Source of the DNA: Myxococcota bacterium
Lineage (GTDB): Bacteria > Myxococcota_C > UBA6777
Reading direction: 5' to 3'
Length of the DNA stretch: 47,436 nt
NCBI GenBank assembly: GCA_023150835.1
Contig: JAKLKB010000037.1
Location: 1 to 47,436 of the forward strand
Numbering within the stretch: position 1 is the stretch's first letter; each line of letters begins with the position of its first letter. Made by a program: the position numbers and the translations under genes. Below are positions 11,887 through 43,904 of the stretch, in pieces. The notes below the pieces were generated by a model. It had not been told where the DNA came from and made no database searches. It saw only the letters and a program-made list of their open reading frames with translations.

Positions 11887-12000
11887 ACGAAATCCGCAGG
11901 GAGCATGATCGTAAAACGTAGGGGCAGCCACAGGGGCTGCCCAAGGATTGGGCGTCTGGGCGCTATCCTTCTTCGATCATAGATCACTCGGCTATCGTAT
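11887..12000 (+). repeat. Family-1 dispersed repeat, copy B
   Basis: A complete copy, ACGAAATCCGC at the left and GGCTATCGTA at the right, with an internal hairpin GGGGCAGCC/GGCTGCCC. The left end begins one base after the PP2C stop codon (TAA at 11883-11885). It fills most of the gap between two convergent genes. Confidence 0.85.
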
Positions 12001-12027
12001 ACCGCCCGCAAAAGATATCGGCGAAGA

Positions 12028-13056
12028 TTACGGAGCGGGTGTTGTGGCAGATCGGGAGGCGGGAACAACGGGCTGAGAAGCGGGAGGAGATATCTTTGCA
12101 GGAGTCGTCGCGGGGAGATAGGCGGCAGGGGCGCGGATATCTGTCACGATACCGTAGTGATCGGACAAGGCATCTTTAAAGACGCGAAACGAGGTAAATT
12201 CGAAGCCTTTGGGTACGAAGACCCAGTCGAAGCGTTTTTTGAAGCGGGGAAAAGTGTAAAGGTACGGATTGAAGGGCTGATGCGTCGTTAAGTTCAGGGC
12301 TTTTGCAAAAGAACGCAACGGCGAGTTTTCCTTGAACCATTCGTTGTTAAAGTCGCCTGTCAAGATCACAGGGTTTTTGCGTGTGCGTACGATATCGATG
12401 ATCTCTTGAAGTTGCGAGCGCTGCATGTGATTGCGCAGCGGATCAAGGTGCAGCGTGATCAGATCGACCTTGAGCGTTGGGATCTCCGGCCACTCGATGG
12501 TTGCAACCACAAAGCCTTTTCCCGGCATGGGAAAAGACGGCTTAAAGATATGTGATATCGTCTTTTTCATCGGGATCAGCGAGATAAATCCCGTTCCATA
12601 GCGCAAGCCCATCTTTTGGACATGTTCGCCAAGCAGGCTGAAGGGATACCCCGACTGTTCGGCAAGATAATCGACATGATGGAATTGACCGCTCCAATTG
12701 GAGGGAGCATCGGCTTCTTGGAAGGCTGCGATATCGGGTTGTTCACGCCGAATTACTGCCGCGATATCGCGGAGGTTGCTTTCAAACGTCGGCTTGCTGA
12801 GCAGATACTGATGAACCGAGCGTTTGCGACCATGTGCAAGATTGAGCGTCAAGATGCGCAGCGTTCCTTTGGGGCGCTCACGTGTGAGTTTTAAGGGGGC
12901 GACACGGATCACGGTTTGCGGGACACTTGTGGTTCTTGGAGTTTGCGCACGCGCCGCGATCAACGGAAGTGCAACCCCCCATCCCAACGCGATCAACAAC
13001 ACTCCCCATCCTGTCCACTGAATTCTCCGACGTAATTGCGTCTTGCTTGCTTGCAT
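12028..13056 (-). CDS. Endonuclease/exonuclease/phosphatase-family protein, exported
   Basis: The start at 13056 (GAGGAG seven bases upstream) gives 342 residues. One hydrophobic segment at about residues 17-37 (WGVLLIALGWGVALPLIAARA) is a signal peptide or anchor. The catalytic domain has the EEP-fold motifs in order: TLNLAHG (Asn), AFQEAD (Gln-Glu), LHLDPL (His), LTGDFNNEW (Asp and Asn), FDWVFV (Asp) and LSDHYG (Asp-His). These residues coordinate Mg and cleave phosphodiester or phosphoester bonds in DNA, sphingomyelin or inositol phosphates. The export signal argues for an extracellular or periplasmic DNase- or phospholipase-like role. A short Pro/Ala/Ser-rich tail ends the protein. Confidence 0.88.
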   Translation of the reverse strand: MQASKTQLRRRIQWTGWGVLLIALGWGVALPLIAARAQTPRTTSVPQTVIRVAPLKLTRERPKGTLRILTLNLAHGRKRSVHQYLLSKPTFESNLRDIAAVIRREQPDIAAFQEADAPSNWSGQFHHVDYLAEQSGYPFSLLGEHVQKMGLRYGTGFISLIPMKKTISHIFKPSFPMPGKGFVVATIEWPEIPTLKVDLITLHLDPLRNHMQRSQLQEIIDIVRTRKNPVILTGDFNNEWFKENSPLRSFAKALNLTTHQPFNPYLYTFPRFKKRFDWVFVPKGFEFTSFRVFKDALSDHYGIVTDIRAPAAYLPATTPAKISPPASQPVVPASRSATTPAP

Positions 13057-13232
13057 CTGCGAACTCCTCACAAAAGAGCCAACCATCCGAAGCGATCCTC
13101 CACATCCGCATCTCTACGTTTGGAGATCGCCACATTTAGCCAAAAACAAAACTGTAGCGCAAGAGTCCGCATCCTTGCGGGTTGCGGGGCCGCACGCAAC
13201 CAGCCCAGACCCAAAAGCCGATGCGATGGGGT

Positions 13233-13802
13233 TCAGAACGTGGAGAAGTGGATGCGGCGCCCGGGTTGGAAGCCTGTGCTGTCGATGCGAAGGGCTTGGA
13301 TCTGCGCGTCGTTGAGTCCGGGGATGCGCATTTGAAGGGCGGAAACAGCTTCGGTGCAGAAGTGGTGGCCGTAGGATGGGGAGAGGCGTTCGGAAGCAAG
13401 GGTGATCTTGTCGCAGAGATGCTGAAAAAGAGCCTTCCACCGTTCGTAAGCAACCGGTTTATCCGCACGCATCAGCGTGTGGCTCGATACACGGATCTCC
13501 AATCCGACATGTTGCGCGACGATGAACATCAGGTTTCGCTTCCAAGGTTCGGAAGGAACGGCATGCAAGCTATCGATCCGCATCGTGGAGAGGTCGGGCG
13601 TGAGAGGTCGGGCTTTGACGCGTTCATCGAGCGTCGTCAACTGCATCAAAAGGGCGGCATCTTCGCCGAGTTCTTCTTTGGTGATGCCGTACTTGCCCAT
13701 CAATTGGAGAGCATGGAGACGGGCAGACTCCCCTTCGGGCCGTCCCACTTGATCGTGGGCCAAACGAAGCAAGGCGCGGACTTTTTCAATCTTGTTCATC
13801 AT
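13233..13802 (-). CDS. DUF2786-like protein
   Basis: About 189 residues. Two adjacent ATGs at 13802 and 13799 share the upstream GGAAGG; the open frame extends to 13970 but has no such site there. The N-terminus (about residues 1-45) reads KIEKVRALLRLAHD...EGESARLHALQLMGKYGI, closely matching the DUF2786 pattern of a K-I-x-K-L-L-x-L-A helix and an A-x-x-L-M-x-K-Y-G-I helix. The remaining region, with GHHFCTEAV, resembles the rest of many DUF2786 proteins. The function is unknown; some members occur near phage or stress genes. There is no signal peptide, so it is probably cytoplasmic. Confidence 0.78.
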   Translation of the reverse strand: MMNKIEKVRALLRLAHDQVGRPEGESARLHALQLMGKYGITKEELGEDAALLMQLTTLDERVKARPLTPDLSTMRIDSLHAVPSEPWKRNLMFIVAQHVGLEIRVSSHTLMRADKPVAYERWKALFQHLCDKITLASERLSPSYGHHFCTEAVSALQMRIPGLNDAQIQALRIDSTGFQPGRRIHFSTF

Positions 13803-13994
13803 CGCCCTTCCGTCGCTTAGAAAAGCGCGTAAAGAAACCCACGCATACACGGTGTGTTGAGCCTTTCTGCTGTCTTTGGGTGTCGTATCGAGGCGGAGCG
13901 GTGAGGCTTTGGGGTCGTTTGGGGACGAGAGAAAGCCGCGTCCGTTCGTGGAGTATCGGCGTGCGAGCATACGCCGAAGAAAAAGCGGTGTAAA

Positions 13995-14474
13995 CTACAA
14001 AAGATCGATCCAAGCCTCCCACCATACGGGACATCGCCCATGAATCGCGATCTGGATCTCGCGCTGCTCTGGGCTTTTGGAAAGCAGACGGATCGCAATG
14101 TAGTCAGCAGGCAAGTAGCCCTCCAATCGATCTGCCCATTCGACGGCCACCACCGCCTCACCATCCAAGCAATCACGCCAACCAATGCTCTCCAGTTCAT
14201 CAACATCCGAAATTCGATACAGGTCGAGGTGATACACAGGCAAACGACCTTCGTACTGTTCGATCAAAGAAAAGGTTGGGCTGCGCACATAAGCTTCCTC
14301 GGGGATCTCTAGCCCGCTCGCGAGTCCTTGGACAAAACAGGTTTTTCCTGCCCCCAGATCCCCGATAAGCGCCAAGACTTCGCCGCCTTGCAACAAGCGC
14401 CCCAAAGCTTCCCCAACAGAGGCTGTTTCGGAAGGTGAGCAGGTCCAGATCGAATCGCTGCGTGTTTCGCTCAC
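13995..14474 (-). CDS. tsaE: tRNA threonylcarbamoyladenosine biosynthesis ATPase TsaE
   Basis: A 159-residue protein. Walker A GDLGAGKT is at residues 38-45. SPTFSLIEQYEG, HLDLYR (82-87) and VEWADR (111-116) are all characteristic of TsaE. TsaE is the ATPase that, with TsaB and TsaD, makes the t6A modification at position 37 of ANN-decoding tRNAs. The start overlaps the end of nnr by four bases (ATGA), so translation is coupled. The nnr-tsaE pairing is common in bacteria and supports both calls. Confidence 0.97.
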   Translation of the reverse strand: MSETRSDSIWTCSPSETASVGEALGRLLQGGEVLALIGDLGAGKTCFVQGLASGLEIPEEAYVRSPTFSLIEQYEGRLPVYHLDLYRISDVDELESIGWRDCLDGEAVVAVEWADRLEGYLPADYIAIRLLSKSPEQREIQIAIHGRCPVWWEAWIDLL

Positions 14475-16153
14475 CGCTGTCCTCCCAAACCACCCGTCGG
14501 GTGAGCTGTTGCGTTTGTCACGAAAACATCGGCCCGTTGTGCAAGCGTGTCAGCCCCTTGCTCAAAAGCTGCGAGCGCTTGGGGCCACATCGCCAAAAGA
14601 TCCGAAGCGATCAATGCCGAAGCAGCGGCTCTTGTAGCCCACAGATCACCCGCCCAACCATGCAAAAAGACCCCCAAACACGCGGAATCTTCGGCTTTGT
14701 AGCCTTGGGCCAACAGACCACCGATCAGCCCGGCCAAGACATCTCCGCTTCCTGCGGTCGCCATCCCCGCATGCCCTGTGGGGTTCAACCAAACTTTGCC
14801 CGTTGGCGTCGCGATCAACGTTCTTGCGCCCTTCAAAACCACGATCGCACCGCTGTTTTCGGCAAGTTGTTTTGCGTACATCAAGCGATCACCTTGGATA
14901 TCTCGCGTCGAACAACCACACAACCTCGCCATCTCACCCGGGTGAGGCGTCAAGATCGTCGCCGCACGCCGCGCACGTAAACACTCGACGCGGCCCACCA
15001 ACAGATTCAAACCATCCGCATCGATGACTGTGGGCTTTTGAACCCCAAGCAACGCCTCAAGTAAGCTCCCCGTAACAGCGGTTTGCCCCAAGCCCGGCCC
15101 TATCACCATGATATCCCGCGCCTCCGCCAGCTCGGCCCCTCGCCGACAAGCCTCCGCCAGTTCGACCCCTCGTCGCCCTGTCTCTGTCTGTTCAAATGTC
15201 CCTTCCCACGGAACAAGGCGCTCCGTCATCACTTCCAAGATCCGCCCTTCTGCGGCATCCACCGCTGCGGGTTCGCTCGCCAACGTACATAACCCCGCCC
15301 CGCTGCGCAGCACCGCAAGGCAGGCCAACAACGCAGCCCCCAGCTTGCCCCGTGATCCCGCAACCACCAAGACATGGCCATAACTGCCTTTGTGCGTATC
15401 CTGCTCACGTGGACGCCATCGCTCGCGCAACGCCTCAGCCTCCAAAACCTCGCAACGCGCAACTGCCGCCTCGATCAGCTCTTTCGGTGCGCCGATATCC
15501 ACACAGACTTCTTGCCCCACAAACGCCGCAGCATGGGGCATCCACAACCCCACCTTGCGCATCGCAAAAGTAATCGTCAGATCCGCCCGAAAACACAGGG
15601 GCATCGGATGTCCCGTCTCTGCGTGCATTCCCGAAGGAAGATCCACCGCAACGCGAAAAGGTCCGTCTATCCGACTCAATCGTTCCAAAACTTGACGCAT
15701 CCACCCATCGACAGGGCGCGAAAGCCCCGTTCCAAGCAGCGCATCCACCAGCACCGCACAACGAGACAACTGCGACGCAGCTTGATCCAAAGCCGACTCA
15801 TCCAAACAAGGATGCACCACCCCACCCATCTTTTGCCAGATCGCCAGATTGCTCGCGGCATCTCCCCGAACATCGGACTCTTCAACGCATCGGTACACTT
15901 CGACGTTGTAGCCGCAGTTGTGCAAGTGTCGAGCGATAACGTAGCCATCCCCCCCGTTGTTTCCCGGCCCTGCCATGATACAGATCTTGCCATCCCCACG
16001 CATCGGGCTTTTTCGCACATATTCGTCGATCAAGCGCGCCGCCCCTCCGCCCGCGTTCTCCATCAACACGATCCCCGCGATCCCGTACGCCATCGCTTGT
16101 TGATCGAGACGACGGGCCTGTTCGACCGAATAAAGCTTCTTCAAACGATCCAT
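14471..16153 (-). CDS. nnr: Bifunctional NAD(P)H-hydrate epimerase/dehydratase
   Basis: A 560-residue protein with both domains. The N-terminal epimerase (about residues 1-215) has MENAGGGAARL and AGPGNNGGDGYVIARHL. The C-terminal dehydratase (about residues 230-540) has KGSYGHVLVVAGSRGKLGAA, a PHPGEMARL segment and NPTGHAGMATAGSGDVLAG, the ribokinase-like nucleotide-binding signature. The enzyme repairs NADH and NADPH damaged by hydration: it interconverts R and S hydrates and dehydrates the S form using ADP. Residues around 325-344 carry a duplicated ELAEACRRG-type segment from a 30-bp tandem repeat, an apparent insertion in the dehydratase domain that probably lies in a surface loop. Confidence 0.96.
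   Translation of the reverse strand: MDRLKKLYSVEQARRLDQQAMAYGIAGIVLMENAGGGAARLIDEYVRKSPMRGDGKICIMAGPGNNGGDGYVIARHLHNCGYNVEVYRCVEESDVRGDAASNLAIWQKMGGVVHPCLDESALDQAASQLSRCAVLVDALLGTGLSRPVDGWMRQVLERLSRIDGPFRVAVDLPSGMHAETGHPMPLCFRADLTITFAMRKVGLWMPHAAAFVGQEVCVDIGAPKELIEAAVARCEVLEAEALRERWRPREQDTHKGSYGHVLVVAGSRGKLGAALLACLAVLRSGAGLCTLASEPAAVDAAEGRILEVMTERLVPWEGTFEQTETGRRGVELAEACRRGAELAEARDIMVIGPGLGQTAVTGSLLEALLGVQKPTVIDADGLNLLVGRVECLRARRAATILTPHPGEMARLCGCSTRDIQGDRLMYAKQLAENSGAIVVLKGARTLIATPTGKVWLNPTGHAGMATAGSGDVLAGLIGGLLAQGYKAEDSACLGVFLHGWAGDLWATRAAASALIASDLLAMWPQALAAFEQGADTLAQRADVFVTNATAHPTGGLGGQR
15121..15180 (-). repeat. In-frame 30-bp tandem duplication in nnr
   Basis: Two 30-bp units (15121-15150 and 15151-15180) begin CCTCCGCCAG on the + strand and differ at a few positions. 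On the coding strand they produce the repeated Arg-Arg-Gly-x-Glu-Leu-Ala-Glu-Ala motif. Confidence 0.85.
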
Positions 16154-16178
16154 CCTTTGTTTTTTGATTTGTTTTTTG

Positions 16179-17684
16179 CTAGTAGCTGTTGATGGCGTAG
16201 CGTTCGACGTGGAAAGACTCGCGTGGGCGGATCAAGATCTTGCGATTCAAGAGTTTTTCTAACCAGTCCACCACGCCGCGCTCTTGACTGAAAAGCTGCT
16301 CAACCACTGAAGGATGAGCGTTGACTTGGATGGTTCGACCTTCCATCGCGTCGGCCATCCGCATCAATTCACGAAAGATCTCGTAGCAGATCGTGGTTTT
16401 GGATTTGAGCATCCCCGTTCCGTTGCAATAAAAACAGGGCTCCGTCAAGGTCCGACCGAGACTTTCACGCACACGCTTTCGGGTCATCTCGACCAAACCG
16501 AGTTCTGAGATCTTTAAGACGTTGGTTTTTGCACGATCGGCTTTGAGTGCCTGAACAAGCGCAGCACAGACCCGATCGCGATGTTCTGTGCGTTCCATGT
16601 CGATAAAGTCGATGATGATCAACCCGCCGATATTGCGCAAACGAAGCTGATACACCACCTCTTGGACGGCTTCGAGGTTGGTTTGTAGGATCGTATCTTG
16701 GAGATTGCGGCGTCCGACATAGCGGCCCGTATTGACGTCGATGGCGGTCAATGCTTCGGCTTGATCGATCACCAAGTACCCGCCACTTTTCAGCCAGACC
16801 TTGCGCGCAAGCGCACGGGAGATCTCGTGCGAGATCCCAAAAGTGTCAAAGATCGGATCGGGCCGTTGATACAGTTCGACAGCAAACTGTGCCTCGGGCA
16901 TATACGAGTCCAAAAAGCGCCGTACGCGATAAAACTCTTCGGGATTATCGAGCAAGACGCGCTCGGTCTCGTCGTTACAAAGATCGCGGATCGATCGCAG
17001 CGCAACGTTCAGATCGTAGTGCAAAAGCTCGGGAGCTTGGGCGCTTTCTTCTCTTCGTTGGATCTCTGTCCACATCCGTAGCAAAAAATCGACATCACGG
17101 CGCAGTTGTTCTTCGGAGGCTCCTTCGGCCACCGTACGAACAATAAAGCCGCCTTCGGAAGGGCGTACGCCTTCCATCAGTTTTCGTAAGCGTTCGCGCT
17201 CTTCGGCGTCTCCGATGCGACGAGAGATCCCGATATGCGAAAAGCGCGGAAGATACACAAGATAGCGCCCGGGCAACGTGATGTGCGTGGTGAGGCGCGC
17301 TCCCTTGGTTCCAAGGGGGTCTTTGGAGACTTGGACCGTGATGGTTTGGCCCTCTTGAAGGATATCTTCGATACGGAGTTCTTCTTTTCCTTCTTCTTCG
17401 TGGTGGTGGGGATGTTCGGTTTCGCTCTCCTCTCCAAGTTCGACATCACCTTCTGCGGCCATACGCGCATCGCCGACGTACAAAAATGCTGCCTTCTCTT
17501 GTCCGATATCGACAAAAGCGGCTTGCATCCCCGGCAAGACACGGACCACACGACCTCGATAAATATTGCCTACGATACCACGTTCATGCTCCCGTTCGAT
17601 ATACAGCTCAGCCAGACGACCATATTCCAGCAAGGCGACACGAACCTCGGGTAGCATGGAGTTGATGACGAGCATATTGCCCAT
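16179..17684 (-). CDS. rng: Ribonuclease G (RNase E/G family)
   Basis: The start at 17684 is favoured because GGAG lies six bases upstream; an ATG at 17696 has only AAGGG immediately before it. This gives 501 residues. The order is an S1-like RNA-binding domain (about residues 35-140), a 5'-sensor/RNase H-like region, and the catalytic DNase I-like domain with Asp316 (AIDVNTGRYVG) and Asp359 (IIIDFIDM). CFYCNGTG (Cys417, Cys420) forms the zinc-link used for dimers. The enzyme cleaves single-stranded A/U-rich RNA and processes 16S rRNA. An acidic, His-rich insertion (EHPHHHEEEGKEE, about residues 90-102) interrupts the S1 domain. No C-terminal degradosome scaffold is present, so it is G-type rather than E-type. 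Confidence 0.96.
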   Translation of the reverse strand: MGNMLVINSMLPEVRVALLEYGRLAELYIEREHERGIVGNIYRGRVVRVLPGMQAAFVDIGQEKAAFLYVGDARMAAEGDVELGEESETEHPHHHEEEGKEELRIEDILQEGQTITVQVSKDPLGTKGARLTTHITLPGRYLVYLPRFSHIGISRRIGDAEERERLRKLMEGVRPSEGGFIVRTVAEGASEEQLRRDVDFLLRMWTEIQRREESAQAPELLHYDLNVALRSIRDLCNDETERVLLDNPEEFYRVRRFLDSYMPEAQFAVELYQRPDPIFDTFGISHEISRALARKVWLKSGGYLVIDQAEALTAIDVNTGRYVGRRNLQDTILQTNLEAVQEVVYQLRLRNIGGLIIIDFIDMERTEHRDRVCAALVQALKADRAKTNVLKISELGLVEMTRKRVRESLGRTLTEPCFYCNGTGMLKSKTTICYEIFRELMRMADAMEGRTIQVNAHPSVVEQLFSQERGVVDWLEKLLNRKILIRPRESFHVERYAINSY

Positions 17685-17846
17685 ACAGATCTCCATACCC
17701 TTGTCAATCGGGGATAATCATTCGGTGGACGTGCCACAGGCCGATCTATCCGCAAAGTTGTAAAGAATCGCATAACTTCATATCCAAAAAACGTTATTGT
17801 ACACGTTGAGGCCAACTCACAAACGCCGAATCTCGGTGATTTTGGC

Positions 17847-21374: not shown

Positions 21375-21377
21375 CCA

Positions 21378-23245: not shown

Positions 23246-23255
23246 AAAAAACCTC

Positions 23256-23726: not shown

Positions 23727-23860
23727 CGCACTCTCCTATGCCCCAATGCCGCCAAAACCGATACCCACACAACGCGCCTCGCATCCTAACACCCAAACTG
23801 CCGCCGGTCTAGTCCAATCCTTTCCCATCCTCCCTCGCCTGTCTCCAATGCCTGCGCTCA

Positions 23861-24010: not shown

Positions 24011-24044
24011 ACCGCTGCTTCGATCCACACAAGCCTCCCATCCC

Positions 24045-27437: not shown

Positions 27438-27474
27438 ACACGACCAGAGATCGACAGCGAGCGTTTCTGCTCAG

Positions 27475-27709
27475 ACGAAATCCACCCACGTCGTGACCGC
27501 AAAATGTGGGGGCAGCAAGGTGTGATACGAAATCCGCAGGGTGTGTTACCGTAACGGTGTAGGGGCAGACAGGTGTGGCTGCCCAAGAATCGGGCGTCTA
27601 CGCCTATCTTACGATCACACATCGCTCGGATATCGTATAACTGCCCAACCACAGGGCGTCTACAGCGGATGGCACCTACCCTTCGAGTACACTTCTCTCG
27701 GATATCGTC
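27475..27709 (+). repeat. Older family-1 repeat split by copy C (nested insertion)
   Basis: The left half (27475-27525, from ACGAAATCC through GTGGGGGCAGCAAGGTG) and the right half (27639-27709, from CTGCCCAACCACAGGGCGTC through CTCGGATATCGT) line up with one intact element when the 113-bp copy between them is removed. The break is in the hairpin loop, between the arms GGGGGCAG and CTGCCC. The right end abuts the stop codon of the GGDEF-EAL gene (27710-27712). Confidence 0.8.
27526..27638 (+). repeat. Family-1 dispersed repeat, copy C (inserted copy)
   Basis: A complete 113-bp element: TACGAAATCCGC at the left, GGATATCGTAT at the right, and an internal hairpin GGGGCAG/CTGCCC. TA occurs at both boundaries, as would be expected for a TA target duplication. 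Confidence 0.85.
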
Positions 27710-29899
27710 TCAGCCGACAAAGTCTTTGGGGATCAAGGGTTGGTTTTTCATTAAGACGGCAAATTCATGGGCAGGAAGGGGAGGACTAAACAGGTAGCCT
27801 TGCAAGCGATCGCATTGGATGGAGCGGAGGTAGTTGAGTTGGCTGCGGTTGTGGACGCCTTCTGCGACCACCGTCAATCCGAGACTATGGGCTAAAGCAA
27901 CGATACCTTTGGTGATGGCGGAGTCTTCGGGCTTGTCGGTGAGATCCTTGATAAAGGATTGGTCTACTTTGAGGATCTGTACGGGGAAACGCTTGAGGTA
28001 GAGCAAGCTGGAGTATCCCGTACCAAAGTCGTCGATGGCGATATGAACGCCCATCGCGTGCAAAGCCCGCATTTTTTGGCGAGTCGCCTCTTCGTCTTGG
28101 AGAAAGATATTCTCGGTGATCTCCAGTTCGAGCAGCGAGGGATCAAAGCCCGTCTGTTCGAGGGTACGCGACACCACTTCGACAAAGTTGGCGCGCAAAA
28201 AATGCCACGGCGAGATGTTGACGGACACCATCAGACGGGGGAATCCTTCGGCTTGCCAGACCTTACATTGTCGACAGGCTTCTTGGAGCACCCACTCTCC
28301 GATCGCAACGATCAAGCCCATATCTTCGGCGATCGGGATAAAACGCGCAGGCGAGACCAGTCCAAGATCGGGGTGTTTCCAACGCAGCAACGCTTCCATC
28401 CCTGCGATACGATAATGCGTGGAAGCAGGCGTGGCATGGAGGGTTTGTTGCACCAAAAAGTTTACTGGGATCTCGTTAACGACCTTGACTTGGGGCTGAT
28501 AATACAACTCGAACTGCCCGCGCTCGATCGCCCGACGTAGGCTGTTTTCGAGGGCGAGTCGCTCAAACGCAGCCACGTTGAGCGCAGGTGTGTACAAGTG
28601 GAAGGTGTTTTTGCCTTGCTCTTTGGCTTCGTACATCGCGCTGTAGGCGTTTTTGAGTAGCGCCTGAAAGTCTTCGCCGTCGATCGGATAAAAACTGATG
28701 CCGATGCTTGCGGTCAAGAAAAGCTCGTGGCCGTCTTTTTCAAAGGGTTCTTCAAGGCTGCGCAGCAACATCTGTGCGCTCCGCACCGCAGCTTGGGGTT
28801 CTTTGAGCGAGGGTATCATCACGGCGAATTCGTCTCCACCGAGACGCGAGATGCTTTCGTCTTGGCGGATCGTTTCTTTGAGCCGTTCGGCGACGGAGAG
28901 CAACAATTGGTCGCCAGCGGAGTGGCTAAAGGTATCATTGATCCGCTGGAAACGATCGAGATCAAAGCAAAGCACCGCGACCATCTGACCCGTCTGTGCG
29001 GCTTGGAGGATGGCTTGGCGGAGGCGGTCTTGAAAGAGCAATCGATTGGGAAGCCCTGTGAGTGCGTCGTGTTGGGCAAGGTGTTCAAGGCGTTCAAGAC
29101 TGTACTGGAGTTTTTCTTCGGCTTCTTTGCGCTTGGTGACGTTGCGCGAGATGGATTGAAGCCCGACCACCTGATCCTCTTGATCCAAGATCGGTGAGAG
29201 CGTGGTCTCAAACCACTTGTATCCGCCCTCTCGCAAACGCGACCGCGACATCAACGTCACTTTTTGACCTTGAAGGACTTGCTCGTGCGAGCGTTGGATC
29301 ATGACCCGATCTTCGGGATGAAACAGCACATCATACAGGTTGACTCCGATCAACTCGGAGGGAGCAAACCCCAACAGCCGCTCGCACGACGGACTCACAT
29401 AACGAAACCGCCCATCCACGTAGTGCAACGCCACCATATCGCTTGCATGTTCCGTCACAAGACGAAAGAGCTGTTGCTCTTTGCGCAGTTGTTCGAGTTT
29501 TTCTTGTTCGAGGGTGATATCTTGCAAGACGCCATAAATCAAAACGGCGTCTGCATCGGTGGGATGCGGTTCGGTTTGTGTAAACAAGCGCATCCAACAC
29601 AAGGCGCGATCACGCAGATACGCCCGAAAGTCCAAACAACTGCGCGATCCGATCGGCAGATCCCGCAAAAAGCCTTCGACCAAGGGGCGCTCTTTTTCGT
29701 AGACCCAACGCAAGATCCGATCGGGATCATGCGCTCTCTCGCCCGCCTCAATGCTCTTCTGATGACGGTGATCTTTGAACCATAACAGCCCGATTTCCGC
29801 GCCTTTGCGATGAAACTCCATCGTGTACGCAGAGAGCAACCCTGCAAGCTTTTCGTAATGTGCGATCTGAGGTGTCGAGGGGCGTTTGTTTTCCGTCAT
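27710..29899 (-). CDS. PAS-GGDEF-EAL cyclic di-GMP signalling protein
   Basis: A 729-residue protein without signal peptide or transmembrane segments. A degenerate first sensor (about residues 1-130) is followed by a PAS/PAC domain (about 140-257; FRYVSPSCERLLGF, FHPEDR, SISRNVTKRKEAEEK). The GGDEF domain (about 270-435) has DALTGLPNR and GGDEF intact at 354-358; the inhibitory RxxD site is RQDE, so product inhibition may be altered. The EAL domain (about 450-710) has EAL at 502-504 and DDFGTGYSSL, so phosphodiesterase activity is plausible. About 15 extra residues precede EAL. It could make or degrade c-di-GMP. It follows the acyl-CoA gene cluster by 55 bp, but the start has only a weak ribosome-binding site. 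Confidence 0.95.
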   Translation of the reverse strand: MTENKRPSTPQIAHYEKLAGLLSAYTMEFHRKGAEIGLLWFKDHRHQKSIEAGERAHDPDRILRWVYEKERPLVEGFLRDLPIGSRSCLDFRAYLRDRALCWMRLFTQTEPHPTDADAVLIYGVLQDITLEQEKLEQLRKEQQLFRLVTEHASDMVALHYVDGRFRYVSPSCERLLGFAPSELIGVNLYDVLFHPEDRVMIQRSHEQVLQGQKVTLMSRSRLREGGYKWFETTLSPILDQEDQVVGLQSISRNVTKRKEAEEKLQYSLERLEHLAQHDALTGLPNRLLFQDRLRQAILQAAQTGQMVAVLCFDLDRFQRINDTFSHSAGDQLLLSVAERLKETIRQDESISRLGGDEFAVMIPSLKEPQAAVRSAQMLLRSLEEPFEKDGHELFLTASIGISFYPIDGEDFQALLKNAYSAMYEAKEQGKNTFHLYTPALNVAAFERLALENSLRRAIERGQFELYYQPQVKVVNEIPVNFLVQQTLHATPASTHYRIAGMEALLRWKHPDLGLVSPARFIPIAEDMGLIVAIGEWVLQEACRQCKVWQAEGFPRLMVSVNISPWHFLRANFVEVVSRTLEQTGFDPSLLELEITENIFLQDEEATRQKMRALHAMGVHIAIDDFGTGYSSLLYLKRFPVQILKVDQSFIKDLTDKPEDSAITKGIVALAHSLGLTVVAEGVHNRSQLNYLRSIQCDRLQGYLFSPPLPAHEFAVLMKNQPLIPKDFVG

Positions 29900-31377: not shown

Positions 31378-31490
31378 TACGATATCCGAGTGATGTGTAC
31401 ACAAAGGATCGTACACAGACGCCCTGTCATTGGGCAGCCACACCTGTCTGCCCCTACGCCTTTGCGGTAACACAACGGGCGGATTTCGTG
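31378..31490 (-). repeat. Family-1 dispersed repeat, copy D
   Basis: A complete copy in minus orientation: TACGATATCCGAG at its left and GCGGATTTCG at its right. It lies in the 374-bp gap between the biotin carboxylase and biotin carrier genes, directly beside a family-2 element. With that element it occupies most of the gap. Confidence 0.85.
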
Positions 31491-31502
31491 TGACTTGTTG
31501 CC

Positions 31503-31636
31503 AAAAAAGCCGTGTTCGCGAATGCTCAAGCGACAGAGTTGTCTGTGTAAAAAACGATCGATCTCTTCGCCCCTCACGGGGTCAAGGGGACAAAGTTCCC
31601 TTGCGGGGTTTGGGGCAGCGCCCCAACAAACCAACC
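31503..31636 (+). repeat. Family-2 multi-hairpin repeat, copy R1
   Basis: The element opens AAAAAAGCCGTGTTCGCG and ends in hairpins: CCCC/GGGG around 31570-31580, GGGGAC/GTTCCC, then TTGGGGC/GCCCCAA. It lies 31 bp beyond the biotin carboxylase stop codon (the gene is on the minus strand). Confidence 0.8.
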
Positions 31637-31667
31637 ATCCACTCCGAGGCTGTTCGCAAAAGCCCGA

Positions 31668-33173: not shown

Positions 33174-33278
33174 CCGCTTGTTGCTCCTCTTCTCGCGCTT
33201 CCTCGACTCGTCTTGCGCTGGCTTCTTAAACAAGAACATCCTCAAAACACGAAGCTCACGCCAAATTCACTTGTCGAC

Positions 33279-33412
33279 AAAAAACCCCGTGCTCGGGGAC
33301 GTTCGAGCGGCAGCACCGTGCATTTGAAAAACACCTGCTCGCTCCGCCGATACGGGGTCAAGGGAGCCGCGCTCCCTTGTGGGGCGTGGGGCAAAGCCCC
33401 ACCAAACCACCC
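33279..33412 (+). repeat. Family-2 multi-hairpin repeat, copy R2
   Basis: A copy similar in length to R1, with GGGAGC/GCTCCC and GTGGGGC/GCCCCAC hairpins. Several stem bases differ from R1 in compensating pairs. It ends 15 bp beyond the stop of the carboxyltransferase gene (minus strand) and lies within the 254-bp gap before the biotin carboxylase start. Confidence 0.82.
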
Positions 33413-33427
33413 GACAAGTCAGTGCCA

Positions 33428-35041: not shown

Positions 35042-35187
35042 CGCCGCACCTCCGATCGCTTGTTGTCTTGGCCTTTGCGCAGTGTTGCCTTCTTCGGCTT
35101 TTCTGAACGCGAGGATTTCTTCACGGATTTGCCCGCGCTGTCAAGACAAAGCAACCGCTCGCTTGATTTTCCTCGGATTTACGCGAT

Positions 35188-35244
35188 TGGTTTGCGTGAT
35201 GGGGCGCTGCCCCATACCCCGCTTCCTTAGCGCGAGGCTTTTTG
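35188..35244 (-). repeat. Family-2 multi-hairpin repeat, copy R3 (short)
   Basis: Read on the minus strand it has AAAAAGCCTCGCGCT, GCGGGGT and the hairpin ATGGGGC/GCCCCAT, with the middle part of R1/R2 missing. It sits three bases beyond the stop of the gene fragment at 35248, and between that and the carboxyltransferase start. Confidence 0.7.
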
Positions 35245-35247
35245 CGG

Positions 35248-35670
35248 TCAGTTGGGATCGCAAGGTCCGTCACAAGGCGAGGCGATCTGACCGCCTTCTT
35301 TGAGGAAGTCCACAAGAGTCTGGATCACGTTTTCGCGATCGCGGATATCAAAATGCACCGAATTCACGGGTGCAGGGATGTTGGCATCGGGCGGAAAAGG
35401 CGAAGGGCGCGGCCCAAATTGGAGATACCCCCATCCAGTCAACGGTCCAGTTTCTTGAGGAAGACCATACACAGGCTCAAACGCCGACACCAACGAGGGG
35501 ATCTGCATCGTACGCATCAGCAAGCGCGTGGTTAGGTTGTTCACAAGAGCATCACCGATGGCCTCGTGATACATGATGGTTTTGGCGGGGATACCGAGCT
35601 TTTGGGGTTCATTTTTGAGATAAGGAGCAAAGGTGATGGGGTCGATCTGATCAAAGAAGGGTTGAAGCAT
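35248..35670 (-). pseudogene. C-terminal fragment of a hydrolase-like protein
   Basis: 140 codons without a ribosome-binding site before the first ATG. The sequence starts abruptly inside what looks like a folded domain (IMYHEAIGDALVNNLTTRLLMRTM) and ends in a typical exported-protein C-terminus with two Cys (ASPCDGPCD). The EAIGDALVNNLTT and SVHFDIRDRENVIQTLVDFL segments resemble the final, His-containing part of alpha/beta-hydrolase or lipase-like surface proteins in myxobacteria. The upstream 84 bp to the next gene is a repeat and cannot hold the rest. I read it as a remnant left by deletion. A short functional gene is less likely. Confidence 0.55.
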
Positions 35671-35675
35671 GGCAA

Positions 35676-35740
35676 GATAGGAGTGGAAAGGGCCGACGCA
35701 TCGCGTCGATAGGAGTGGAAAGGAGCCGACGCATCGCGCC
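35676..35740. repeat. Two 32-33-bp tandem repeats
   Basis: Units at 35676-35707 and 35708-35740 open GATAGGAGTGGAAAGG and contain CCGACGCATCGCG. They lie between the hydrolase-like fragment and the Ig-like lipoprotein gene. Confidence 0.8.
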
Positions 35741-35754
35741 GAGGTGTGAGGAGA

Positions 35755-37329: not shown

Positions 37330-37505
37330 CAAACACGTCTCCTTCGGGGTATCCGTGCCGTCGTGCGGTGGACGGCTCCTTCAAAACACAGAGGCTTCAG
37401 AGTATGGTATGTTGGCTTTTCCGTCAACACAGCGTTGTCTTTCGTTCGTCCACAAAAGCGCTGCCCTTGGCGCGCTGCTCTCGGTATGTTGGGAAGGGAA
37501 ATTGT

Positions 37506-39230
37506 ATGTTTGCAGATTCCATCACACGCAAGATGCGGGGGTTTGTGTCTTCGCTTTCTCCTCTGCTGCGGCCAACCTCGATCACGCGCAGGATGCGATG
37601 GTTCGCGTTCTTTCTTTGCTCTGCGTTTCTCTTTCAGTCCCCAAAGAGTTCCGCAGAACCAAACCTCCTTCGAGGTTGGCCCGCAGGGCTAAGTGATTTC
37701 TGTCTCGACTATCTCAAAGGATGTCATCGACGGTGCTTCAAGCAAAAACAGCATGTCCGAGATCCAAACGGCAAGCTTTATCCCCCCTTCGTTGTCGGCT
37801 TCCTCTGTCGGCGAATCTGCTGGAACACCCCTCAACGACAACAGATCTGCCAGATGAGCGAAGCCCAGTTCCGCTCCTTTGCACGCAAATTTGAGCATGA
37901 AGAACGGGAAAAGCTCAAAAAAGAAGCACTCGAACAAGAACAAAACCGCCAAGAAGAAACCAATCGCCAACAAGCCGAAAAACGAAGACTCCAAAGACTC
38001 CAAGAACAGCGTCAAGAAGAAGAAGAACGATTGCAGGCCCAACGCCAACAACTCGAAGAGCAAAAGCGCAAGATCCAAGCCCAGCAAAAGGCCGAAGAAC
38101 AGGCCCGAAACGCAATCAAGACCAAAGCCCAAGCTGAGGCCAAAGCCCAACAGATCGAGATCGATCGGATGCGCAAAGCCCTCGCAGAACAAAGAAAAGC
38201 GATGGAACTCCAACGCCAGATGGTCGAAGAAGAACAGAAACGCCTCGCCGTGATCAAGAAAAAAGCGGAAGAACGCAAACGCCTCGAAGAAGAACGCCAA
38301 CAAATCGAGGCCAAACGCCTTGCCGAATGGGAACGTTTGCGACTGGAGCGCGAAAAACAACTCGAAGCCCTGCGCAAACAAAGCGACGAAGAACAAAAAC
38401 GCATCACTGAGATGCGCAAACATACCGAGCGCGAAAAACAACTTGCCGAAGAACGCAACCGCCTCGCCGCCGAACAAGCCGCTGCCGAACAACAAAAAGA
38501 AGCCGATCGTCTCGCCGCCGTCCGACGCGCCAACAAAGAACTCAAACGCAAGATGGCTCGCCTCAAGCTCCGAAAACAACGCCTCCAAAAACAGCGTGAA
38601 CTCGCACGCCAAAACCAAAAAGCACGCATTGAGCGCATGAAACGCCTCGCCCTTGCCTCCAACAAACAGCGCACCCGAAAAATCAAACGCCCCAAAGTCT
38701 CCCCCGGACTCCGACTTTTCCGAAACGGCCAACTCAACGAAGCCGTCGCCGAATTTGAAAAAGAAGGCAGCACAGAAAAAGCTGAGCAAATCAAAGAATT
38801 TCAACAATACTACCGACGCGGCACCGAAGCCTACCAACGCCGCAACGCCAACGAAGGCATCCCCGCCCTCGAACGCGCCTTTACACTTGATTACGATCTC
38901 AGCGAAGGCTCTAGCAACTACACGCCCCTGCTCCGGCGTATGCTCTCCCGTATGCACACCATGCGCGGTATGCTCTCCATGAGCCAAAACGAATACCCCG
39001 CCGCCTTCAACGCCTTCTCTTCTGCTCACAAACACGATAAAAAAAACGACACGGCCCTACAGCAACTCGCCAAGATCCGCGAAGTCGCCAACCAACGCTA
39101 CCAACAAGGCATCCAACTCAAATCTTCAAACCCCCAAGCCTCTCGTCACCTCATGCTCCAAGTCTGTCGACTCGTCCGCCCCTCCGATCCCCTTTGCAAA
39201 CAAACCAAAAAAGAACTCAACGAACTCTGA
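37506..39230 (+). CDS. Secreted long coiled-coil protein
   Basis: The ATG at 37506 has AAGGG eight bases upstream and gives 574 residues. A signal sequence (RMRWFAFFLCSAFLF) ends near SSAEP. A Cys-rich N-terminal patch with six Cys (FCLDYLKGCHRRC... FLCRRIC...QIC) precedes a very long charged coiled-coil (about residues 115-390) rich in E, Q, K, R and A. The C-terminal part (about 395-574) looks like TPR-type helices: FRNGQLNEAVAEFEKEG, YRRGTEAYQRRNANEGIPALERAF. It is probably a periplasmic or extracellular structural or assembly protein. A long antisense open frame opposite it is an artefact of its composition. Confidence 0.85.
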   Translation: MFADSITRKMRGFVSSLSPLLRPTSITRRMRWFAFFLCSAFLFQSPKSSAEPNLLRGWPAGLSDFCLDYLKGCHRRCFKQKQHVRDPNGKLYPPFVVGFLCRRICWNTPQRQQICQMSEAQFRSFARKFEHEEREKLKKEALEQEQNRQEETNRQQAEKRRLQRLQEQRQEEEERLQAQRQQLEEQKRKIQAQQKAEEQARNAIKTKAQAEAKAQQIEIDRMRKALAEQRKAMELQRQMVEEEQKRLAVIKKKAEERKRLEEERQQIEAKRLAEWERLRLEREKQLEALRKQSDEEQKRITEMRKHTEREKQLAEERNRLAAEQAAAEQQKEADRLAAVRRANKELKRKMARLKLRKQRLQKQRELARQNQKARIERMKRLALASNKQRTRKIKRPKVSPGLRLFRNGQLNEAVAEFEKEGSTEKAEQIKEFQQYYRRGTEAYQRRNANEGIPALERAFTLDYDLSEGSSNYTPLLRRMLSRMHTMRGMLSMSQNEYPAAFNAFSSAHKHDKKNDTALQQLAKIREVANQRYQQGIQLKSSNPQASRHLMLQVCRLVRPSDPLCKQTKKELNEL

Positions 39231-39245
39231 TCCCCTGCCCTGAGA

Positions 39246-39932
39246 TCACGACCACAACAGCCCCAAAAACCGACTGCGCCTCGGCTCCAAAGCGACGAGC
39301 AACGACTCCCGCTGGGCTTGTGTGACACCCGCCAACAACAACGGCTTCCAACGCGGCAGTGCGCTACGCCACGCCTCGATCGCCTCCAAGACTTCCTCCC
39401 AATCCCCTAGATCTCCCTCTGCATCCGAAAGATCCGCGATCCAAAAATCACAGCCCAGATGACGGAATGTTTCGATCTCATACGAAGAGGGCACTCGCAT
39501 CTGTTCCCACGTCACCACCGCCCCTTTCTCCCCATGATACGGCTGCGCAACGTCGCTTTGCTCCAAGCAACGCCACCACACCGCCTGCATCGCCAACACT
39601 TCTGTGTGCGTCTCCTGCGCCAAGGACGCCCATTCCAATAGCGCTTCCGCCATCGGCTCGCCCTGTTCGATGGTGCTCACAGGCCACAACACCCGCTTGC
39701 TGCGGCGTTGTTTCGCACGCACTTCATCCAACCAAGCAACCACCCACTCCCGTTGCTCTAGCGCTCCCGCCTCGCCTGATGGCACCTTCAGCACCAGCCA
39801 ACCCGCTTTCTGTTCGACCGCTCTCTCTAAAAGCCCCGTCACCTCGACCGACAACGCTTCGTGCGCCTCTTGCCCTGACATCCCCGCACTCTCTGACCGT
39901 CCCCTCGCGATCAAACCTTGTACAACCAACAT
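39246..39932 (-). CDS. Hypothetical protein, faintly SppA-like N-terminus
   Basis: The ATG at 39932 has AAAGGAG six bases upstream, so I prefer it to a TTG at 39971; this gives 228 residues. The opening MLVVQGLIARGR and LLERAVEQKAGWLVLKVPSG resembles in outline the start of S49 (SppA-like) peptidase domains, but the catalytic Ser segment is absent, so any relationship would be to an inactive or diverged form. No signal peptide is present. It follows the collagen-like/FGE gene by 51 bp on the same strand. Confidence 0.68.
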   Translation of the reverse strand: MLVVQGLIARGRSESAGMSGQEAHEALSVEVTGLLERAVEQKAGWLVLKVPSGEAGALEQREWVVAWLDEVRAKQRRSKRVLWPVSTIEQGEPMAEALLEWASLAQETHTEVLAMQAVWWRCLEQSDVAQPYHGEKGAVVTWEQMRVPSSYEIETFRHLGCDFWIADLSDAEGDLGDWEEVLEAIEAWRSALPRWKPLLLAGVTQAQRESLLVALEPRRSRFLGLLWS

Positions 39933-39983
39933 CTTCCGCTCCTTTCGTTTCAGAAAATCAAACCACGCCAACTCCCCGCTTCC

Positions 39984-40985
39984 TCACGGAGAAGGGGGTG
40001 CAGACAAAGCCACCCCTCGCGTTAAACAACAGCGAAACCCCACCGCAGGCGAAGAGGCTTGCGGCCCAAAACGAAGATCAAGTGCATGGATCCCCGCTGC
40101 TTCGGCAGCATTGTAATCTCCGCCACGCACCGCTGCGGCGGGTAGCCCGGGCGTACTGTTGTTTCCAACCGCTGTCAACGATCGACCATTGAGATTCCAC
40201 GTCCCATCTTTCCCATCCACCGAAAGACTTCCCCACGGCGACAGCAACAGCGCCCCTTCCCACTTCGCAAGATCCGCCTCCGCAAGCCCTCCCGCGATAT
40301 ACCACTCATCGACCCACTCACCGACGTTGCCGATGCCATCGAAGACGCCGAGCCGTGACTTGCACAACGCCTGATTTCCCGAAACCAACGCACCTGCCGC
40401 ACTCACATTGCAAGCGCCGTTGGTGCTACTTGCACCCGGGTCGGGTGTTCCCGCAACACCCAACAGCCACTCTTGCCGAGAACACAAACGCTTGCCTGCG
40501 TTGGCACAAGCACGAGCGGCTTGAAACCATGTGATCCGCGTCTGAGGGATGCGGCTTCTTGAACCAGCAACTGCTGTCGTGTCGCTGCCATCGGCTTTTC
40601 CAAGTTTGCTCGAATCATCTACACTCGCTTCGTAGAGATCGATGCAAGAACGACCGATCATCGCCATCCCTTGGGGACATTGGCTCGCCACCTGAAGCTC
40701 CGTCCGCAGATCGTCGATCTTCTTTTGCAGCGCGTCGATCTGCGCCTTCATCGCTTGTTGAACAAGCTGCTCCACTTTTGTGGCTTCGACTTCTCCGGGC
40801 GGACCTTGGGGACCGGGTGGACCTTGAGGACCTGTAGGCCCCGTCACTCCGGGATTTCCTTGAGGCCCTGTCGCTCCCACAGGACCGACATCGCCACGCG
40901 GACCCACCTTCCCGGGAGGGCCACAGTTCACGAACACCACACAACACACAACCAAGATCACCCAGCTTCGGAGCTTTGCAATCAT
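39984..40985 (-). CDS. Collagen-like lipoprotein with FGE-sulfatase domain
   Basis: The ATG at 40985 has AAGGG eight bases upstream (GTG codons before it are possible starts); this gives 333 residues. A signal sequence leads to a probable lipidated Cys21 (FVNC). Residues 22-66 are 15 uninterrupted Gly-X-Y triplets with frequent Pro and Gln, a collagen-like stalk. A short helix follows ([26 protein letters not shown], about residues 72-97), which could trimerise the stalk. The C-terminal domain (about residues 103-325) is of the FGE-sulfatase type: [59 protein letters not shown] and VGFRCC. FGE-like domains in such contexts are often binding rather than catalytic. Confidence 0.9.
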
Positions 40986-41012
40986 CACCACATCCCTTTT
41001 CTGTAGGATTAA

Positions 41013-41126
41013 TACGATATCCGAGTGATGTGTACACGAAGGGTCGTACGTAGACGCCCTATTATTGGGCAGACACAGGGGTCTACCCCGACATCCTTAC
41101 GATCACACAACGGGCGGATCTCGTCT
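41013..41126 (-). repeat. Family-1 dispersed repeat, copy E
   Basis: A complete copy in minus orientation: TACGATATCCGAG on the left, GGGCGGATCTCG on the right. The interior matches copy D closely (GTGATGTGTACAC then TAGACGCCCT). It lies just upstream of the collagen-like/FGE gene. Confidence 0.85.
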
Positions 41127-41190
41127 AAGATCTTCGATTCTTTCCAACCTCACGCAGCAAACGATCCCCTTCAACCTGACAGTCTTCACT

Positions 41191-42309
41191 TCAACGCAGA
41201 TCGATCAAGCGCACGCCACACAAAGAGGCCGATGTTTGGACGCCGCCTAGAGACTGAGGAAAAGCCCCACCATGCGCTTTGTTGCGGTGTTGGTGCGCTG
41301 ACACACACGACGATCTGCGCCCGCTTGCAGTGATGTTTCTTTCGGACGTTGTGGTGCTTGAAGTATCGGGGTCTTTCGGTTTCGGTCGAAACATCGGCGC
41401 AACCAACATCGCAACCCCCGCTCCAAACAACAGCGCCCCCAAAGACAGTCCACCCCATCCAAGCGAATAATCCAAGACGATCTGTTCGCGGATCACTTCG
41501 GATTCTTCGAGATTGATCGTGTTGTTCCAGCGCTCGATGCCTTCGTTCGATCGCAAAAAAAACACGCCTCCCGCGATCATCAGCCCTGCTCCCACCGCGA
41601 TCAACGCTCCGCCCGCGATCAACAACGGGCTTGGACCTTTGCCCTCCAACTCCAACACACGCGGCGAGACCTCGCTCCCTGCCGCATAACTCCGATTCCC
41701 CGCACAATCCGACGCCACGATATAATAAGCCACATACTTGCTCTGCTGTATCTGCTCCGCCGACAGCCCCACCCGATAACGATCCTCTCCGATCGGCTCC
41801 ATCGACAAACGCTCCCACGCCGCTTTCGGTCGATAACGAACGTATGCCTCGACCCGCAAGACCTTCATGTCGTCCGTCACTTTGGCCGTCAACACAGGTT
41901 CTTTCAAGGCCGTGACTGTATCCATCGGTGTATGCGAGATCATCGGCCCCCCCGCATCACCGCGCAAGATCCGCTTGCGGGCCGCCAAAAACACTCGCCT
42001 CGCCTCGCCTTGTAGCCCGGGGATCATCGACACACACGCATCTCGACGCAGCATCTCGATCACGATCGCATAAGCTTCTTTCTCCCGCCCTAACGCCACA
42101 TACGCCCCCGCAAGACGCCCCGTAATGCGTTGTCGCTGTGTGGTCGAAAGCGTCGTATCATTCGAGCGCAGCCATGCCACGCCTTGCTGAACGCACCACG
42201 CATGTTGCTCGTCTTCACACCGCTTCTCATAACGCTCCAACGCATCGCTCTCCAACGGAGCCATCATCCACGGCAGAGACCACCACAACCACCACGCCAA
42301 ACTCGCCAT
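41191..42309 (-). CDS. Membrane protein with helical N-terminal domain
   Basis: About 372 residues from the ATG at 42309 (GGAGG four bases upstream; an adjacent ATG at 42312 is possible). A longer open frame to 42474 covers a repeat and lacks a ribosome-binding site. An N-terminal hydrophobic helix (LAWWLWWSLPWMMAPL) acts as signal or anchor. About residues 20-115 are TPR-like helices; about 120-215 look like a beta-sandwich (VLTAKVTDDMKVLRVEAYVRY). Two hydrophobic helices follow (SPLLIAGGALIAVGAGLMIAGGVFFL and LGWGGLSLGALLFGAGVAMLVAPMF). The final 55 residues are low-complexity and of uncertain reality. No family was recognised. Confidence 0.75.
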   Translation of the reverse strand: MASLAWWLWWSLPWMMAPLESDALERYEKRCEDEQHAWCVQQGVAWLRSNDTTLSTTQRQRITGRLAGAYVALGREKEAYAIVIEMLRRDACVSMIPGLQGEARRVFLAARKRILRGDAGGPMISHTPMDTVTALKEPVLTAKVTDDMKVLRVEAYVRYRPKAAWERLSMEPIGEDRYRVGLSAEQIQQSKYVAYYIVASDCAGNRSYAAGSEVSPRVLELEGKGPSPLLIAGGALIAVGAGLMIAGGVFFLRSNEGIERWNNTINLEESEVIREQIVLDYSLGWGGLSLGALLFGAGVAMLVAPMFRPKPKDPDTSSTTTSERNITASGRRSSCVSAHQHRNKAHGGAFPQSLGGVQTSASLCGVRLIDLR

Positions 42310-42322
42310 CATCCCTCCAAAC

Positions 42323-42445
42323 ACACCTAAACTTGCCAAGGCTGAATATGCCCAACCATCGGCACAAATCGCACAGAACAAATTCCAAACACCACACCTA
42401 AGCTTTCCAAGGCTGAACATGCCCAACCATCGGCACAAATCGCAC
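42323..42445. repeat. Duplicated 3' end of pcm (71-bp period)
   Basis: A 52-bp sequence beginning ACACCTAA and containing CCAAGGCTGAATATGCCC (42323-42374) recurs at 42394-42445 with a few mismatches. The latter copy covers the end of pcm, including its stop codon; the former is intergenic. Confidence 0.85.
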
Positions 42446-43066
42446 TGCGCAAAGATGCTCTTCCTCAAAAACATCCCCCCGCCGTGTCACGCGCAACAAG
42501 CTCTGATCGGGCGCCATGCCCACAGGGATGATCATCCGCCCGCCCTCTCGTAGCTGCGCACACAACGCAGAAGGCAGATCCGCAGGAGCTGCAGTCACCA
42601 AGATCGCATCAAACGGCGCTGCATCCGACCATCCCAATGCACCATCTCCTGCCCGCACGTGGATCTGCTTGTAACCCATCGATTCTAACCGCCATGCCGC
42701 TTCTTCGGCCAACTCCCGCACGATCTCGATCGTGTACACCTCTGCGCCCATCTCCGCCAAGATCGCCGCACTATAGCCCGATCCTGTCCCGATCTCCAAG
42801 ACGCGACACGACCCCTCGGGCAGTCTTGCGGCTTGGCTCATCAATGCGACCATATAGGGCTGCGAGATCGTCTGCAAAGGCCCCAACGGAACAGGGCGAT
42901 CCGCATAAGCGCTCTCCACCTCGTCCTTGGGCGTAAACAGATGCCGAGGGACACGCAGCATCGCGGCCAACACGCGCTCATCTTGCACACCACGGTGTCT
43001 CAATTGTTCCCTCACCATCTTCTCTCGATCGCGCTGTTGGCCTGTCTGGTCTTTTCCTTTGCTCAT
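42398..43066 (-). CDS. pcm: Protein-L-isoaspartate O-methyltransferase
   Basis: The ATG at 43066 gives 222 residues, the normal length; the open frame to 43225 is not conserved in the family. Motifs are PRHLFTPKDEVESAYADRPVPLG, QTISQPYMVALM, the SAM-binding VLEIGTGSGYSAAILAEMG, and post-I VYTIEIV. It methylates isoaspartyl residues in damaged proteins to start their repair. A GGGGGA lies just before the start. The 225-bp gap upstream (43067-43291) shows nothing else. Confidence 0.95.
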   Translation of the reverse strand: MSKGKDQTGQQRDREKMVREQLRHRGVQDERVLAAMLRVPRHLFTPKDEVESAYADRPVPLGPLQTISQPYMVALMSQAARLPEGSCRVLEIGTGSGYSAAILAEMGAEVYTIEIVRELAEEAAWRLESMGYKQIHVRAGDGALGWSDAAPFDAILVTAAPADLPSALCAQLREGGRMIIPVGMAPDQSLLRVTRRGDVFEEEHLCAVRFVPMVGHVQPWKA

Positions 43067-43291
43067 GATTCCCCCAAACCCTTGATGGGTTCGCTGCTTG
43101 CTTTGCAAAACACTTCGCACTACGCCAGCGCCTTTGCAAGCAACACCTTGCCAAGCACAACACACGACTTCTACAATGGCGACGCTTGGCGCATACAACA
43201 TAACGGCCTCGCACACCAAACACAAAGAAAACCTCCCGCACCACCTTCGTTGTGCCTCGACACGGCACTCCTCAACAAGAAAGGATGCACC

Positions 43292-43693
43292 ATGGCAAAA
43301 TACAAAGCTGCCCGACCTTCTGCTCCCCGCTTCTCTTTACCCATCAACGGACCAATGATCGGCCTCCTACTTGTTCTTGCTGTAGGGGGCTACTTTGTGT
43401 ACGCCTACGTCCCTCCTTGGGTCAAAAGCCTCAATGCCAAGTCCAAAGTCAAAGATATCCTTGGAGAACTTTCCCTGCGGGATGTCCAAGAAGACAGCCT
43501 TGCAGAAACCGTCTCTCGCGAGATGACCAAGATGGGCGTCGAGGTCTCCCAAGCCGACGTCCGCGTCGAAGTCAACCGAGATTCTCGGATTGTTCGCGTC
43601 TGGTTCGATTGGAATACCGATATATCCTTCCCTTTTATCGAGAAAAAACACCGCGTCAAATACGGTTTCGATATCGAACGCAAGATGCAGTAA
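43292..43693 (+). CDS. Small membrane-anchored protein
   Basis: 133 residues from the ATG at 43292 (AAGGA seven bases upstream, GAAAGGATGCACC). A basic N-terminus precedes one transmembrane helix (about residues 22-42, MIGLLLVLAVGGYFVYAYVPP). The remainder is a soluble alpha/beta domain with KVKDILGELSLRDVQEDSLAETV and VRVWFDWNTDISFPF, resembling in outline the small DUF4845-like membrane proteins, though that is not secure. No known role is assigned. Confidence 0.8.
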   Translation: MAKYKAARPSAPRFSLPINGPMIGLLLVLAVGGYFVYAYVPPWVKSLNAKSKVKDILGELSLRDVQEDSLAETVSREMTKMGVEVSQADVRVEVNRDSRIVRVWFDWNTDISFPFIEKKHRVKYGFDIERKMQ

Positions 43694-43698
43694 AGGCT

Positions 43699-43743
43699 CC
43701 CCAACAGCAAGCGAGGTCGGAAGGAGCGGGCCTGCTGTTGGGG
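43699..43743 (+). terminator. Perfect 11-bp inverted repeat after the small membrane protein gene
   Basis: CCCCAACAGCA (43699-43709) and TGCTGTTGGGG (43733-43743) are exact inverted repeats with a 23-base loop, five bases after the stop codon. No T-run follows, so if it terminates it would be factor-assisted or would protect the mRNA 3' end. Confidence 0.45.
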
Positions 43744-43794
43744 TCGAAGGCTTTGTGTGGGGTCGAGGGCTTTGTGTGGGGTCGAAGGCTTGTA
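43740..43794 (+). repeat. Three 19-bp tandem repeats
   Basis: Units starting at 43740, 43759 and 43778 open GGGGTCGA(A/G)GGCTT; the third is truncated where the family-1 copy F begins. Confidence 0.85.
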
Positions 43795-43904
43795 CAAAAT
43801 CCGCCCAGCGTGTGCTCCTAAAACGTAGGGGAAGACAGGTGTAGCGCCCTACCACAGGGCGTCTACGCACGACCCTTTGATCACACATCTCTCGGGTATC
43901 GTAT
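43793..43904 (+). repeat. Family-1 dispersed repeat, copy F
   Basis: A complete copy: TACAAAATCCGCC at the left and GGGTATCGTAT at the right, whose last base overlaps the stop codon of the convergent DUF2325 gene (43904-43906). The internal hairpin is partly changed (GTAGGGGAAGACAGG). Confidence 0.82.

Follow-up and report, generated by a model that had tools for sequence, protein, structure and literature searches.

A new MITE family with a three-base TNA target and a REP-like hairpin core in a Myxococcota genome

The 113-letter non-coding element dispersed over the window analyzed here, which is the whole of a 47,436-bp contig (C192) in a Myxococcota assembly of 7.56 Mb and 239 contigs that is 93% complete (G000), represents a new MITE family of an already known kind that has moved recently. 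It is short and non-coding, carries terminal inverted repeats, duplicates its target and is missing from individual sites in a relative, and a DDE-type transposase acting in trans very probably inserts it into the triplet TNA, which is duplicated in the process. For specialists, the interest of the family lies in its use of stop codons via the TNA target, its copy number and the combination of a REP-like core with target duplication.

Anatomy, copies in the window and abundance

A profile search of the window recovered all seven copies and pieces of the original prediction, whose coordinates were off by 1 to 2 bp at most and were redrawn with element ends set from 90 copies. Complete copies scored with E values of 5e-33 to 4e-41 and the pieces at 27470-27524, 27640-27713 and 1-47 with 3e-6 to 2e-11. 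On the forward strand, a complete copy at 11886-11999 follows a TAA (11883-11885) that is the stop codon of an ORF at 10560-11885, and another at 43793-43903 is followed by a TCA (43904-43906) that is the reverse-strand stop codon of an ORF at 43904-45295. The complete copies at 31378-31490 and 41013-41125 lie on the reverse strand within duplicated TCA and TTA targets, respectively. An older forward-strand copy at 27474-27709 has TCA on both flanks (27471-27473 and 27710-27712), the right one being the reverse-strand stop (TGA) of a GGDEF-EAL gene at 27710-29899, and is split by a complete inner copy of the same strand (27526-27637) that sits in its hairpin loop at a TGA (27523-27525) and has TAA on its right flank (27638-27640). 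The right-hand part of a further forward-strand copy at 1-40 (nhmmer 2.8e-10), followed by a TAA at 41-43, is truncated by the end of the contig, which the window spans in full.

The typical element is 112 to 113 bp long and, as predicted, holds no gene. Its ends are imperfect terminal inverted repeats that are real and, at ca. 31 bp, longer than first described, with TACGAWATCCG as the outer sequence, TACGAAATCCGCCCGTTGTGTGATCGTAA as the left repeat and TACGATATCCGAGTGATGTGTGATCGTAG as the right one (reverse complement, read inward). The core consists of GTAGGGGCAG, a loop and CTGCCC, after which comes another short arm, GGGCGTCTAC, and the internal GGGCAG/CTGCCC hairpin already noted in the window is found in nearly all copies. 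A subset of 119 to 123 bp, including the outer copy in the window, has a longer right half (GTCTACAGCGGATCGCA...). With its GTAG followed by a hairpin, the core has the form of a REP and resembles REPs of the GTAG type. The original label of "MITE or REP-type" thus holds for the MITE part by the ends and the target duplication and for the REP part by the form of the core, but the element is not a stand-alone REP or REPIN, which would be a REP or inverted REP pair lacking terminal repeats and a target duplication: both terminal repeats flank 91 of 131 cores, and just 9 strong core matches have neither end. Some copies have a reverse-complemented hairpin loop in the alignment (CCCCCTGTGG versus CCACAGGGGG), as though it had been flipped, and tandem duplications of ca. 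58 to 67 bp lie inside copies at L082 16111-16335 and L090 3500-3733.

Copies are abundant far beyond the window, with 140 to 141 matches, 90 of them full length, in a 1.25-Mb sample of the assembly and 69 more in a further 0.37 Mb from twenty contigs picked by number alone, blind to matches. These matches are not due to chance, since a reversed-sequence control gave none in 1.2 Mb. Together with 736 candidates in the initial whole-genome search, this suggests a genome-wide total of roughly 700 to 1,400 copies, fragments included, or a genome share on the order of 1%. The range is wide as the contigs of the large sample were chosen for having matches and repeats may be overrepresented on short contigs.

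Target duplication and movement between two species

The duplicated target is the 3-bp TNA and not the dinucleotide TA. Across 90 copies, the flanks follow the pattern TNA-element-TNA, with the same middle base left and right in 54 (23.3 expected by shuffling) and identical whole triplets in 36 (13.5 expected). The nested copy leads to the same result: removing 27526-27637 together with one TGA restores GGTGTGACTGCCC, where the family has GGTGTGGCTGCCC, and leaves an outer core of normal length, so that this site needs 3 bp because a TA duplication would leave surplus bases. Beyond the triplet itself, we found a weak preference for GNNTNANNC, with G at position -3 at a frequency of 0.60 (background 0.30) and C at position +3 at 0.48 (background 0.29).

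Movement is seen directly as empty sites in both directions between G000 and its nearest relative compared, a congeneric genome that is 86% complete (G001), which bears out the original prediction of a non-autonomous mobile element. The sites of the window copies at 31378 and 43793 and of a sample copy at L101:19372 are empty in the congener, with a single TNA remaining, and the site of the window copy at 41013 is likewise empty with a few bases different at the junction. Sites private to the congener were sought with a 1,301-nt query of the flanks of its copies (part of 12 flank pairs) and rechecked by alignment. This uncovered a copy (L039) in a TGA where G000 is unoccupied and reads ATCAAG-TGA-GCGAG, and another at L142:19116 that is private to the congener and has a short tandem repeat at its site. 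Three sites are filled in both genomes (L101:1696, L101:8329 and the outer copy at 27474-27709), and these shared sites together with the private ones imply that the family was present before the two species diverged and continued to move afterwards. Some sites are therefore not shared between relatives, copies occur genome-wide and the ends of the element line up with empty sites, each of which goes against what would be expected of an immobile sequence in this one window.

At the nested site, the same TGA also holds an inner copy in the congener, but in reverse orientation. Judging from sequence similarity, the two inner copies more likely arose by independent insertions than by inversion in place, since the inner copy of G000 is closer to another G000 copy (L060:18364; 109 of 111 positions identical) than to the inner copy of the congener (99 of 113); inversion is disfavored by the same identities.

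Insertion at stop codons and beside older copies

All TNA triplets are TAA, TGA or their reverse complements TTA and TCA, and insertion into a stop codon would duplicate the triplet and thereby rebuild the stop. Rebuilt stop codons are indeed observed, in the window at 11886, at 43793 and at the outer copy of 27474-27709. Among lone intergenic copies, the target triplet is the stop codon of a gene in 21 of 74 cases, while 7.4%, the share of non-coding TNA sites that are stop codons, would be expected (p 6e-8). Of 68 copies, 32 lie in convergent gaps, a class that makes up 108 of 578 gaps overall, and only one of 75 lone copies lies inside a called gene, with genes called roughly, by codon usage within the sample. 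Since any TNA reads as TAA or TGA on one of the two strands, the overrepresentation at stops and in convergent gaps is most readily explained by the survival of insertions that do no harm, which requires no special targeting.

True targeting as opposed to selection, with a transposase that would recognize sequence or gene ends, is a variant of our explanation and strikes us as a rather unlikely source of the stop-codon excess. It may nonetheless contribute, as insertion within occupied gaps favors stop codons over other TNAs roughly two-fold (21 copies versus 11.9 of 65 expected if all TNAs within the same gaps were equally likely), and the weak target consensus GNNTNANNC points the same way. 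Selection against insertions into promoters or terminators would yield the same pattern, however, and a consensus this weak does not suffice to single out stops. We prefer survival of harmless insertions. The family provides a clear example of a target choice that can lower the burden imposed by a mobile element, as a copy inserted into a stop codon restores it, and the two congeneric genomes make this idea testable through counts of filled and empty sites.

Full copies also occur side by side, and all nine pairs at most 40 bp apart are arranged head-to-tail. Five of them are separated by exactly one TNA and are not local duplications because neighbors are only 77% to 87% alike. An array at L047, with gaps of 12 bp and copies up to 97% alike, looks like a duplication. 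The element end GTATNA provides the preferred G at position -3, and old copies may attract new ones in this way. Random insertion does not account for the uniform head-to-tail orientation, which counts against our best explanation. A more tentative proposal would be that the TNA target makes insertion at the 3' ends of genes silent and so allowed the family to reach ca. 1,000 copies, with the transposase also adding copies head-to-tail via a common TNA.

The mode of transposition and its alternatives

The transposase acting in trans would be of the DDE type, recognize the ca. 31-bp ends (TACGAWATCCG...) and insert the element into TNA with the weak preference GNNTNANNC, duplicating the triplet. 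By analogy, it probably resembles enzymes of the IS1031 group of IS5, for which insertion at TNA with a 3-bp repeat has been described (PMC12016507), and it may have been lost, be rare or be absent from the assembly. Searches of G000 for the domains DDE_3, DDE_Tnp_1, DDE_Tnp_4, DDE_Tnp_1_2 and DUF4096 retrieved no transposase with the ends of the element. DUF4096 and DDE_Tnp_4 had no match in either genome, and the 86% complete congener gave no match to DDE_Tnp_1, DUF4096, DDE_Tnp_4, DDE_Tnp_1_2 or Y1_Tnp. Likewise, no gene-bearing long copy was seen in the ca. 21% of the genome read directly (assembly 93% complete). The five DDE_Tnp_1 matches in G000 comprise one IS982, one IS4, one unclassified element and two whose reading frames are broken or short. 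A single IS5-type remnant was found in G000 (C238); its ends are GAGGGTGTTTGCGAAAAAGTG, and it sits in a TTA beside an element copy. The ends of the IS982, the IS4, the unclassified DDE element and the IS5 remnant do not match those of the element, and these candidates were rejected as its partner. We therefore file the family as a MITE working like an IS1031-group element and not as a member of IS5/IS1031, as its ends are not shared with the IS5-type remnant found.

The original prediction had taken TA at most boundaries, where it is indeed present, as a hint of an IS630/Tc1-like transposase, and G000 does encode one whole and one partial IS630 with an IS630-like transposase at C225. A MITE of this type with TA duplication is nevertheless very unlikely, given that the middle base of TNA agrees left and right well above chance, that both the empty sites and the nested copy require 3 bp rather than 2, and that the only intact IS630 found has ends of its own (CTCCCCGATTGACATAAGCAC), by which it was also rejected as a partner. 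Mobilization as a REP or REPIN by a RAYT, a tyrosine transposase, would fit the GTAG and GC-rich hairpin of the core. It would also fit a RAYT-like frame at C113 (near 53317; L110 1092-2214), which contains hairpins of the same kind and adjoins a tandem array of bare cores but does not itself have the ends of the element. We still regard this route as improbable, considering that most cores are flanked by both terminal repeats and few strong ones stand without either, and that Y1_Tnp is without a match in the 86% complete congener even though it has private copies. A 3-bp target duplication would, moreover, not be expected of a tyrosine transposase, going by IS200/IS605. As a side observation, GTAGGGGCAGGCCCCTGTGCCTGCCC hairpins and a 15-bp repeat have expanded in frame within the RAYT-like gene, whose reading frame stays open.

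A regulatory or terminator RNA conserved at orthologous places would be compatible with the hairpin, the intergenic position, the excess in convergent gaps and the three shared sites. The several sites private to one genome make it extremely improbable and, being empty in the other genome, refute it as the main explanation, although individual copies could serve as terminators. Pairing of the ends and the hairpin is retained in 92.7% of cells in the alignment, but two-sided changes are not above shuffles (covariation term -0.19), and selection on an RNA structure is thus not apparent. A search of the window against Rfam gave no match. Transposition as a MITE by a DDE-type enzyme thus accounts best for the family.

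The known distribution of the family is narrow. Among 60 genomes searched as relatives, matches were confined to its own genome and the congener, with none in three genomes of the same family. The exact pattern of the right end, sought in 84,980 genomes, was found in the congener KLAP109 and as single, chance-like matches in five unrelated genomes. In viral contigs, a shorter pattern matched nine times but never as part of a complete element, plasmids gave no match, and a literature search on GTAGGGGC returned unrelated matches only among the 20 listed of 440.

Among known systems, the IS1031 group of IS5 and its derived MITEs share the 3-bp TNA duplication (PMC12016507) and terminal inverted repeats with the element but differ in sequence, as illustrated by the 17-bp ends of ISLrh, GAACCTGTCTAGTATCT (PMC12016507), compared to TACGAWATCCG. 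MITEs of the ERIC/Correia type, compared by features, are similarly short, near-palindromic, intergenic, geneless and of high copy number, with 711 copies of ERIC in Photorhabdus (PMC10969869), but they reside in a different host phylum, and the element stands apart by inserting into TNA and exploiting stop codons. GTAG-tagged REPs and REPINs with their RAYTs (PMC3733652, PMC3116915) resemble it in the GTAG tag, the hairpin core and the presence of a RAYT-like gene in the genome, whereas the core of the element lies inside terminal inverted repeats with target duplication and forms no inverted REP pair. QMITE2 of Coxiella burnetii is likewise a MITE carrying a GTAG REP but differs by its 7- to 9-bp repeats, ends of 23 to 29 bp, length of ca. 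190 bp and 78 copies (PMC10969869). A REP-like hairpin can thus ride in a MITE that duplicates its target, and a GTAG hairpin alone is no proof of movement by a RAYT.

Other repeats were seen along the way. A second family (ACGGGGTCAAGGGG...GGGGTTTGGGG) occupies 31500-31640, 33270-33420 and 46740-46900 of the window and has many matches in the congener. Another MITE-like unit, TAGGACTTACGCAGTT...AACTGCGTAAGTCCTA, with a hairpin core of the GTAGGGGC type lies near 19400-19950 in L067 and L083, and a run of the 9-bp repeat CCGTACTTT at 47298-47436 reaches the end of the contig.
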